This document shows, one piece after another, positions 2,420 through 11,204 of a DNA stretch of 11,695 nucleotides. Numbering within the stretch: the stretch's first letter is position 1; the number at the start of each line of letters is the position of its first letter. The notes beneath the pieces were generated by a model. It saw only the letters and a list, made by a program, of their open reading frames with translations, did no database searches and was not told the origin of the DNA. The stretch is from an uncultured bacterium (lineage in GTDB: Bacteria > Patescibacteriota > Minisyncoccia > Phycocordibacterales > UBA9973), in contig CAIJZW010000028.1 of the NCBI GenBank assembly GCA_903825265.1, positions 1 through 11,695 of the forward strand, given 5' to 3'. Made by a program: the position numbers and the translations under genes.

Positions 2420-3019
2420 ATGGAAAATATTTTTCCTGTGACGATACTAAATTGGTTAATTTTTATCGGCACAATTTCAGCTTATATCATAATGATAGCT
2501 GGAATCATCAAAAATAAAGGTAAGGGTCAAAACTTTTTTACTTGGTTATTATGGGCAGTGCTTGATTTGCTGCTTTACATACTAACAGAAGAAGAGAAAG
2601 GCTCCTGTCTAAGTTTAGTTTTTGGGTGTGTTTTAGGTTCATCTATTACCACTTTATTTCTAATAAGATATGAAATAAAGTGGAAGCAAAAAGAATGGAT
2701 AACCCTAACAACAACTTCAATTTTTGTAACTATCTGGATATATTCAGGCTCAAATACATTAGGATTAGTTCTTGCAGTTGTATCACAACTAATCGCAGGA
2801 TGGCCCCTAATGGAAGAATCATGGAAAAATCCAGAAGATGGGTTAACACTTATTAGTTACCTCATCTTTATTTTAGTCTACTGTCTAAGCATACTAGACA
2901 GTCCTAATTGGGAAATTCAAAATGTGCTATTCCCTATAGCATTTTTGATTTATTCAATTGGGGATACTTTTCCACTCATAAAAAAATGGTGGAAAAATAA
3001 AAATCAAAAAAATGCTTGA
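2420..3019 (+). CDS. Seven-helix membrane protein, PQ-loop/SWEET-like (function unknown)
   Basis: A 199-residue hydrophobic protein with about seven predicted membrane segments, near residues 9-30, 38-56, 63-83, 93-109, 113-130, 142-160 and 166-187. Two cytosolic-type turns look alike: GIIKNKGKGQNFFTWLLW (28-45) and PLMEESWKNPEDGLTLISYL (129-148). A third, FPLIKKWWKN, closes the protein. This repeat of a short basic or polar loop leading into a new helix, with seven helices in total, is reminiscent of PQ-loop/SWEET-type transporters, although no literal PQ pair is present. Substrate and role are unknown. It stands alone on the plus strand with its own promoter, and its TGA stop (3017-3019) lies within the terminator stem. 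The reading frame is secure; the family suggestion is inference. Confidence 0.75.
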   Translation: MENIFPVTILNWLIFIGTISAYIIMIAGIIKNKGKGQNFFTWLLWAVLDLLLYILTEEEKGSCLSLVFGCVLGSSITTLFLIRYEIKWKQKEWITLTTTSIFVTIWIYSGSNTLGLVLAVVSQLIAGWPLMEESWKNPEDGLTLISYLIFILVYCLSILDSPNWEIQNVLFPIAFLIYSIGDTFPLIKKWWKNKNQKNA

Positions 3020-3051
3020 AATTTTGTTTTCACAAAATTTCAAGCATTTTT
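3008..3051. terminator. Bidirectional rho-independent terminator, perfect 20-bp stem
   Basis: The arm at 3008-3027 pairs without mismatch with 3032-3051 around a 4-nt TTTC loop. A-tracts and T-tracts at both ends make it functional in either direction. It sits between convergent genes, includes the stop codon of the plus-strand gene, and ends 4 nt before the minus-strand CutA-like stop codon. Confidence 0.85.
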
Positions 3052-9902: not shown

Positions 9903-11204
9903 CTAACCTAAAAAACTTTTATTTCTTTTTAATTTATGAAATGTTATGGCGAATCTATGCGCCTCACTATTTGCAAGTAATATAGATTTTTTATATATTT
10001 TAATTATCTTTTCATCCCCTATTATAGCTTTCGGTTTATGATGTTCATCTTTTACAACTCCCACAATAGGAATATCAAATTGATACCTATCAATAACTCT
10101 TTTAGCAACATTCACCTGTGCAATACCACCGTCACACACAATAAGATTAGGTAGCCCCCATTCTGTGTGTCTTAAGCGACGAGAAAGAACCTCTTCTAAG
10201 GCACCAGTATCATTAGCATCTTCTTGAGTTTTAATAATAAACTTTCTATATTCACTTTTTTTTACTTCCTCATCTTCTATAACTGTCATAACTCCTACCA
10301 TATTCTTTCCTCCCATATGAGCTATATCATAAGCTTCGATACGAGAGATCCTATCAGGGGTACAACCCCCGGTTGGACCCCTGATAAAATCTACATCTTT
10401 TATCAAAGCCACATCATTTATATGATTCAAGGCAAAAATTCTTTTTTTAATTTCTCCTGCTTTTTCAAATTCTTTCCTTGAAGCATATAAAAGCATTTCT
10501 TTTTTCAAATTTGAAATAATATTTTTCTTTTTACCTTCAAAAAATAATTTAAGATTTTTAATGTTATTTTTATATTCTGATAACGAAGAGGAGAAGTGCT
10601 TTTCAAAATGGTCTGGCACCGGCTCCCGCCCCCCTCGTCCGAGGACCTTTTGAAAAGCATTTCTCCTCGTAGTTTTAATATCAGGAACTAATCCTAACTG
10701 TTTATAAAATTCAATATTATTCTTCTTAATAGAATCATTATCTATATATGGGAAAATTGGGCGGATTATTTTCATCGCATCACGAAGCTGTAAACCATTT
10801 GGAAATGGTCCATAAATTTTATTATACAAGTTCTTTTCTAAACCCCTACCTCTAATAACTAAAACTTTAACTATTTTATCTTTAGTAAAACAAACATAAT
10901 TAAAACTCTTATTATCTTTCTCTTTTGTGTTGTATTTAGGTTTATATTTTTTTATAAGATTAGCTTCTAATATTAAAGCCTCTAGTACACTGTCTGTTTC
11001 TTGCCATTCTATACTGTCAGCTTTTACTGTCATATCTAAAATATGAGGACCTCTAGTCACTATAATATCTTTAGAAAAATAGCTTTTGACTCTATCTTTT
11101 AGAGATGTTGCTTTCCCTATATAAAGAATACTACCCCCTAATTTAAAAGAATAAACCCCTGGTTTATCTGGAATATTCATTTTCTTTAAATATTGACTAT
11201 TCAT
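9903..11204 (-). CDS. uvrC: UvrABC excinuclease subunit C, short form without helix-hairpin-helix
   Basis: A 433-residue dual-incision nuclease of nucleotide excision repair. The N-terminal GIY-YIG domain has PGVYSF (15-20), YIGKATSLKDRVKSYF (28-43) with R38, and LILEANLIKKYKPKYN (77-92) with E80, for the 3' cut. A UVR-like helical hairpin lies near 232-258. The RNase H-like domain for the 5' cut carries D293 (IEAYDIAHMGG), D358 (VCDGG), D386 (VVKDEHHK) and H416 (EAHRFA). The protein stops at HKLKRNKSFLG, where full-length UvrC proteins (about 600 residues) continue into tandem helix-hairpin-helix motifs, so that module is missing. Two segments coded by GC-rich palindromes interrupt it, near residues 177-209 and 272-287, both outside the catalytic cores. 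A second possible start is M9 (11180). Its neighbour at the window edge is probably uvrA. Confidence 0.93.
   Translation of the reverse strand: MNSQYLKKMNIPDKPGVYSFKLGGSILYIGKATSLKDRVKSYFSKDIIVTRGPHILDMTVKADSIEWQETDSVLEALILEANLIKKYKPKYNTKEKDNKSFNYVCFTKDKIVKVLVIRGRGLEKNLYNKIYGPFPNGLQLRDAMKIIRPIFPYIDNDSIKKNNIEFYKQLGLVPDIKTTRRNAFQKVLGRGGREPVPDHFEKHFSSSLSEYKNNIKNLKLFFEGKKKNIISNLKKEMLLYASRKEFEKAGEIKKRIFALNHINDVALIKDVDFIRGPTGGCTPDRISRIEAYDIAHMGGKNMVGVMTVIEDEEVKKSEYRKFIIKTQEDANDTGALEEVLSRRLRHTEWGLPNLIVCDGGIAQVNVAKRVIDRYQFDIPIVGVVKDEHHKPKAIIGDEKIIKIYKKSILLANSEAHRFAITFHKLKRNKSFLG
10347..10391. repeat. GC-rich palindrome inside uvrC (second copy, 35-bp core)
   Basis: TATCAGGGGT (10352-10361) pairs perfectly with ACCCCTGATA (10377-10386). 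Inside it, CAACC (10363-10367) pairs with GGTTG (10371-10375) around CCC, with a single A/G mismatch between the two stems. GAT/ATC at 10347-10349 and 10389-10391 can extend the hairpin outward. It encodes RGPTGGCTPDR in frame, just before the IEAYD motif of the RNase H-like domain. The GC content contrasts sharply with the host gene. Confidence 0.75.
10588..10668. repeat. 81-bp palindromic element inserted in frame in uvrC
   Basis: A left arm (10588-10613) pairs with a right arm (10644-10668) over about 24 base pairs, with one mismatch and one bulged base. The 30-bp centre is almost entirely G and C. It contains its own small hairpin CCTCG-TC-CGAGG (10633-10644) and the core TCCCGCCC...CTCG..CGAG (10624-10643) shared with 389-406. 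It codes for about 30 residues (from KTTRRNAFQ to HFSSSLSE) between GLVPDI and EYKNNIKNLKLF. In the UvrC proteins I recall those two blocks are close together, which suggests an insertion. The frame is kept open. The element family is not known to me; its form resembles Rickettsia palindromic elements. Confidence 0.75.

Follow-up and report, generated by a model that had tools for sequence, protein, structure and literature searches.

The palindrome inside the uvrC gene of the analyzed DNA (a stretch of 11,695 nucleotides, hereafter called the window) is one copy of a repeat family, here named F1. The arm sequences of F1 differ from copy to copy with self-complementarity kept, and unrelated palindromes occupy the identical UvrC, UvrB, and Tgt linkers in sister species. 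We consider it fairly probable that F1 is a mobile hairpin family of approximately 80 to 110 bp from a Ca. Nomurabacteria-type genus, which would have a Y1/RAYT-like mover, survive where the reading frame is kept, and carry palindromic arms whose sequence drifts.

The uvrC palindrome and its site in relatives

An inverted-repeat search returned arms at positions 10582-10619 and 10637-10674 (38 nt, 79% complementary, 17 nt spacer), the longest among the 10 inverted pairs listed for the window. Folding of 10576-10690 on the uvrC sense strand gave a z-score of -6.34 for DNA and of -4.91 for RNA, and in both cases none of 200 shuffles folded as well. A palindrome lying in frame inside uvrC had been reported in the sequence-only reading, which also proposed the RNA fold, and both folds bear it out; the one mismatch and one bulge described for the stem are present as a mismatch and a bulged A, and the ORF is indeed open across the palindrome. 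Only the extent of 81 bp (10588..10668) has to be revised, as the true span is longer (Table 1). Pfam places the domains of UvrC at residues 24-92 (GIY-YIG), 227-259 (UVR), and 284-420 (UvrC RNase H), which agrees with the proposed position of the insert between GIY-YIG and UVR.

The AlphaFold2 model of UvrC, built with 38 sequences, had a mean pLDDT of 79.3, and its domains match solved UvrC halves. Values below 50 were assigned to residues 178-195 and 197-204, corresponding to the F1 insert, and to residues 265-284, where a second palindrome of the family F2 is located. Both inserts are thus modeled as low-confidence loops, and the approximately 33 extra residues at the F1 site probably form a passive, disordered loop. 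Palindromes related to F2 were also seen in uvrC of G005 (site 1) and in tgt of G005 and G023. Elsewhere in the window, at 3008-3051, a perfect 20-bp inverted repeat with a 4-nt spacer lies between two convergent ORFs and is probably an ordinary terminator.

Table 1. Positions of the features discussed; plain numbers refer to the window, L numbers to loci fetched from G018.
Feature	Position	Strand	Basis
uvrC, host gene, 433 aa	9903..11204	(-)	ORF and Pfam
Entire F1 palindrome with its outermost pairs CTGATA/TATCAG	10577..10684	(-)	Folds, repeat search
Inserted codons, UvrC residues ~176-208, lacking in relatives with an empty site	10581..10679	(-)	Alignments; low-confidence loop in the model
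Conserved F1 core GTCCTCGG...GCCAGAC, 36 nt	10611..10646	(-)	Pattern searches
Second palindrome, family F2, GTCCAACC...GGTTGTAC, at UvrC site 2; unrelated to F1	10346..10392	(-)	Repeat search, relatives
Doubled G018 repeat in UvrB	L469:9638-9697
Doubled G018 repeat in the Xer-like recombinase	L475:6863-6934
Doubled G018 repeat in Fmt	L472:12068-12119

Empty and filled sites were compared between species of the genus, with uvrC of G007 and G008 being truncated by contig ends and no UvrC match being obtained in G014, G015, and G019. Of the 19 genus genomes displayed, 12 lack the segment at residues ~176-208. Site 1 measures 6-8 aa in 11 of the 19 genomes, and 13 residues without a palindrome in G022. 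In many relatives, the alignment ends near residue 175 and resumes near 209 with zero or few bases in between; G012, for example, aligns over residues 1-175 and 210-432 with 3 nt between the two parts, and G020 over 5-174 and 208-432 with nothing between them. A palindromic insert fills site 1 in seven of the 19. F1 itself is present in the source genome (G000) and G016, and in G013 with its orientation reversed; G023 has an F1 variant, whereas the palindromes of G005, G010, and G021 are other than F1. Between the copies of G000 and G016, several of the arm differences, although not all, are mirrored on both sides.

The assumption that the segment of about 30 residues is foreign to UvrC is therefore supported by its absence in 12 of the 19 genus genomes, and further copies do exist in the source genome, which contains 13 matches to the F1 core. 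With the segment lacking in most relatives displayed, in-frame insertion of a mobile palindrome, as first suggested from the sequence, is the best reading. A palindrome of the family F4 (GGAAGTC-N-GACTTCC) at UvrC site 2 was considered as additional proof of insertion and dropped, since it adds no length to the linker; elsewhere, F4 is linked to Y1 genes.

The linkers of Tgt and UvrB were extracted as well. For Tgt, 23 of 25 loci (L488-L512) were covered, among which only G003 and G015 have no long insert (20 and 22 residues). In G000, G008, G009, G016, and G007, F1 is found in one frame with similar inner arms, probably representing one old insertion. G005 and G023 carry F1 in another frame behind an F2 element, G001 carries a reversed F1 beside a third palindrome family, and G013 a copy that reads as decayed F1, while the remaining Tgt linkers hold other foldable inserts. 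Since Tgt of different species holds F1 in two sense frames as well as in antisense, these insertions are read as independent. The tgt gene of G012 (L507) is split into two frames by a stop codon, reflecting either decay or a sequencing error.

For UvrB, linkers were obtained from 18 of 24 loci (L528-L551), as six missed the search expression. Short linkers of 13-15 residues occur in four of the 18 (G003, G009, G015, and G022), and the UvrB alignment skips residues ~431-472 in G003, G005, G009, G011, G015, G017, G019, and G022. F1 fills the UvrB linker in G000, G008, G010, and G021, and forms read as decayed F1 in G013 and G023. Two inverted AGGTC-N-GACC repeats are located there in G004, G006, and G018, and other foldable inserts, read as palindromes, in G001, G012, G016, G059, and G068. 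As a background for inverted repeats, 200-kb samples of G018 and G004 contained 29 and 22 with a score of at least 20, compared to 1 and 0 after one shuffle each, with terminators and two masked runs being included in these counts.

Copies, anatomy, and host genes of F1

The relaxed core pattern GTCCTCGG-N9..39-GCCAGAC was matched 122 times in 20 of the 24 genus genomes (own included), and the reversed-pattern control yielded no match in the same 24 genomes. The four genus genomes without a match are G003, G014, G015, and G017. A genome-wide search for further copies, as had been proposed, gave the 13 matches in the source genome mentioned above, two of which lie at contig ends (G000:C50:25-60 and G000:C73:16892-16927), share the same core, and are probably one physical copy separated by an assembly break. 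Of 148 genomes searched with the exact core, 11 gave a match (own included), and all 11 belong to the same genus. A stricter pattern requiring GCCAGACC, which is one base longer than the relaxed core and misses copies lacking the last C, matched seven genomes in a sample of 383 from the class. Three belong to the genus, counting the source genome, two (G059 and G068, with 10 F1 copies) to another genus of the same family, and the last two are G129 and G344. The single matches in the latter two (loci L253 and L259) were rejected as chance, the surrounding DNA having no arms, and their removal reduced the collection from the fetched loci from 132 to 130 copies. In viral contigs, at least 120 stretches matched a short gapped pattern; these were judged to be at chance level and were not used.

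Read on the sense strand, an F1 copy consists of an outer arm, an inner arm, GTC, CTCGG with its followers, and an inner hairpin or G/C loop, after which CCA, GAC, usually a C with a bulged A, the second inner arm, and the second outer arm follow. The core measures between 31 and 52 nt. TNC stands at both ends in 71 of the 130 copies (2.2 in shuffled sequences), and in a check for target duplication the host genes were too diverged for a duplication to be read.

Copies with a flank shorter than 20 nt were left out of the frame count, and those with less than 45 nt out of the arm tests. For the outer arms of 66 coding copies, the mean complementarity to the own partner was 10.05 compared to 5.71 with swapped partners and 5.67 after shuffling, and for 61 non-coding copies it was 9.51 compared to 7.12; none of 2000 permutations was as high in either group. 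Counting against this co-variation, the outer-arm score is below 8 in 19 of the 66 coding and 12 of the 61 non-coding copies, and only 22 and 6 copies, respectively, match their own partner strictly better than any other. In the inner arms (62 of the 66 coding copies), 82% of the cells are paired, compared to 59.5% on shuffling.

Within open frames of at least 150 aa that run through the element, 67 of the 130 copies were found, leaving 63 outside such frames. All six frames are used by the coding copies, and F1 therefore encodes no single conserved peptide. Some of the 67 are situated near the N-terminus, possibly upstream of the true start (L032, L235, and L441). The ORF of L441 begins at a contig end with the peptide GSLVGSEMCIRDRS, which we take to resemble sequencing-adapter read-through. 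The 67 copies form 22 host clusters, of which one member each was scanned with Pfam, some domain scores not reaching the curated cut-off, in part as the fetched loci truncate genes. Hosts are LigA (11 copies), Tgt (8), UvrC (7), PheT (6), UvrB and TruB (4 each), UvrA, Pol I, and TsaD (3 each), and, with two copies each, the CCA-adding enzyme, LeuS, an M1 aminopeptidase, RNase HII, and a class II (F) tRNA synthetase core read as PheS. Single copies were found in an MnmA-type tRNA enzyme, an SMC-type ATPase, a UvrD-like helicase, Nramp, a TraG-like protein, a class V aminotransferase, an RNase H ORF (L032), and a class II tRNA synthetase ORF (L441). The Nramp and TraG-like hosts belong to G001 (L235 and L247), and by eye, similar-reading ORFs are located near uvrC in the window.

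Altogether, genes of DNA repair and replication or of tRNA function host 62 of the 67 copies (60 without L032 and L441), a tally that is purely descriptive. For other phyla, Di Nocera and colleagues (PMC3733652) list excinuclease genes (UvrA, UvrB), UvrD, Pol I, DNA ligase, tRNA synthetases, and TruB as hosts of intragenic REPs. The host kinds found here agree strikingly with that list, and the host bias itself is thus not new.

Among the non-coding copies, 31 share the arms AAATTATATT and are referred to as the S2 class. A gene starts to the right of the element in 27 of the 31 and to the left in four, two of which also have one on the right. In 22 of the 27 right-side cases, the distance from core to ATG is 35-43 nt, and a same-strand gene ends just upstream in 21 of the 31 copies. 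Examples with this fixed orientation, often at operon junctions, are L007, L015, L232, L242, and L427. In G001, two F1 copies lie just upstream of open frames that, by eye, look like ATP synthase gamma and beta, the second copy belonging to S2. The placement of S2 may reflect a target preference or a function that has been taken over, and its fixed spacing before start codons looks functional rather than merely selfish.

Candidate movers and competing explanations

The Y1 transposase family (PF01797) gave 66 matches in 19 of the 24 genus genomes, with up to six per genome, and all 66 loci were taken with approximately 1.2-1.5 kb of flanking DNA per side, or less near contig ends (L063-L103 and L402-L426). 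F1 was found beside Y1 at none of these loci within such flanks, and Y1 as its direct neighbor was rejected. A mismatch-tolerant search of the first 40 loci returned a few isolated matches resembling half-sites and no whole core. At 60 of the 66 loci, a hairpin of non-F1 sequence is located near the gene ends; these hairpins are of many kinds, and some will be terminators. All five genomes without detected Y1 carry F1 (G000, G007, G009, G019, and G022, with G000 and G007 reaching a completeness of only 78% and 84%), and all four F1-less genomes carry Y1, which is opposite to the pattern predicted for a resident Y1 mover.

The situation is different for other repeats of G018. The repeat TAGCCATAGGC flanks a Y1-type gene (L423) on either side and also occurs within it (L423:1459), giving the repeat-flanked Y1 gene expected of a REP/REPIN that F1 shows at none of the 66 loci. 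In Fmt, TAGCCATAGGC stands doubled and in frame. The repeat CCNTAGGTC-N-GACCTANGG, present at 13 places of the same genome, is found immediately ahead of a second Y1-type gene (L422) and within it (L422:1357), the downstream side of this gene having a different palindrome; doubled and in frame, it also occurs in UvrB and in a Xer-like recombinase (Table 1). Both Y1-type genes score below the Pfam Y1_Tnp cut-off; their proteins align with all 65 others in the set at an E-value of 1e-5 or better and contain an NHFH stretch, presumably the HUH motif. The Y1 protein of G011 (L410) shares the peptide SPRSDLGE with L422 and has a related palindrome on both gene sides. In L422, L423, and L410, the repeated palindrome of the genome, or half of it, lies within the frame of the Y1-type gene itself just after NHFH, and PRSDLG and SHRQGLWQ are among the peptides encoded in this way.

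Two further candidates were rejected. A reverse transcriptase is not required for F1, since RVT_1 was undetected in 11 F1-bearing genomes (G000, G001, G004, G005, G006, G007, G008, G010, G016, G018, and G022). Likewise, no mover gene was seen between two F1 copies: the close pairs of G001, G009, G002, and G007 have ATP synthase genes, a ComEC-like ORF (both by eye), pheT, or nothing between or beside them. By analogy with the repeats tied to Y1-type genes, which occupy the same linkers, we consider a trans-acting Y1-like transposase the likeliest mover of F1. The hairpin would be moved in trans as single-stranded DNA by such a Y1/RAYT-like enzyme, and only insertions keeping the frame in a tolerant linker would survive. 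Compensatory change or template-switch repair could keep the arms palindromic while their sequence drifts. The copies themselves are found in gene junctions and in intragenic linkers that are empty in some sister species and filled with unrelated palindromes in others.

A rather unlikely variant holds that the fold and not the sequence is inherited and moved, with arms rewritten at each locus and several hairpin families competing for shared protein linkers. The moved unit would then be the core with its asymmetric internal loop, the bulged A, and the TNC ends, transferred as a single-stranded hairpin by an enzyme that is outside the detectable Y1 family or has been lost, and one F1 class may have been co-opted as a leader at a fixed distance from the start codon. 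The S2 spacing (22 of 27 at 35-43 nt) and a fold kept despite sequence differences would also suit a functional structured RNA or DNA element, such as a leader, a processing site, or a translation element, that is under selection and mainly inherited vertically. We judge this clearly improbable, as 67 of 130 copies lie inside open frames in all six frames, orthologues differ in presence, frame, and orientation of F1, and an Rfam scan of seven loci with E-values up to 0.1 matched only a tRNA.

Homology to the Rickettsia palindromic elements (RPE) after transfer between phyla would explain the like behavior, with in-frame copies, several families, and several host genes, as described in PMC10969869 and PMC3733652. 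However, among the 383 genomes of the class, the GCCAGACC pattern found F1 only in the genus and in G059 and G068, chance singles aside, and with six frames in use, no single conserved peptide, and no enrichment of the CGTC tag, such a common origin is very improbable. Quasi-palindromes can grow through template switching, so that an old UvrC linker might have become palindromic locally with no mobile element involved, and the F4 palindromes at UvrC site 2 without net length gain fit this idea. It is contradicted by the same core being shared by many unrelated genes, and with the insert missing in 12 of the 19 genus genomes we find it scarcely credible. An assembly or sequencing artefact might be suspected in a 78% complete draft of 84 contigs, in which two contig ends share the F1 core; nevertheless, independent assemblies show insertions at one and the same site (UvrC in G016; Tgt in G008, G009, G016, and G007), which reduces its probability to next to nothing. 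The mobile hairpin family thus remains the preferred explanation.

F1 among known repeat systems

Protein-coding palindromes are known from excinuclease, ligase, Pol I, and tRNA genes. Our data add an unrelated phylum with the same host gene kinds, a different palindrome, and many alternatives per linker, together with one genome (G018) in which repeats tied to Y1-type genes stand at the same linker position and even inside transposase genes. The genus therefore offers a comparative system for the mover, the target choice, and the effect on the protein, and selfish DNA that has been decoded may account for loops in Patescibacteria proteins. No report of such elements in Patescibacteria, Nomurabacteria, or the candidate phyla radiation was found among the open-access papers listed in the literature searches.

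The likeness to RPE drawn in the sequence-only reading is apt with regard to behavior, as F1 copies stand in frame in 22 host clusters. Both are palindromic, span tens of codons, are inserted in frame in unrelated genes and also between genes, and occur as several families per genome. However, RPE encode a conserved peptide according to the accessible part of PMC10969869, which does not name their mover, whereas F1 uses six frames. Moreover, F1 belongs to a different phylum, and its arms vary around a small conserved core; the likeness is one of behavior.

MITEs and F1 are alike as small, non-autonomous repeats between and inside genes, but F1 keeps its center and varies its arms. CGTC repeats are palindromic as well, and according to PMC3733652 they are intragenic in some species, seemingly without a dedicated transposase. 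Unlike these, F1 shows no enrichment of the CGTC tag (16 of 130 flank pairs compared to 14.2 on shuffling; 3 compared to 10.3 for GACG). Intragenic REP/REPIN sequences share with F1 the hairpins in coding frames and, according to that source, the kinds of host genes, and repeats tied to Y1-type genes fill the same UvrB linker in G018. F1 differs by its greater length, an asymmetric conserved core, the lack of an adjacent Y1 gene, and the lack of GTAG enrichment (4 of 130 flank pairs compared to 15.7 on shuffling, and 38 compared to 28.3 for the reverse complement CTAC). F1 behaves like an RPE or an intragenic REP and is filed under neither. The family and the phylum are new, while the behavior is known and the host-gene bias is already in print for other phyla (PMC3733652).
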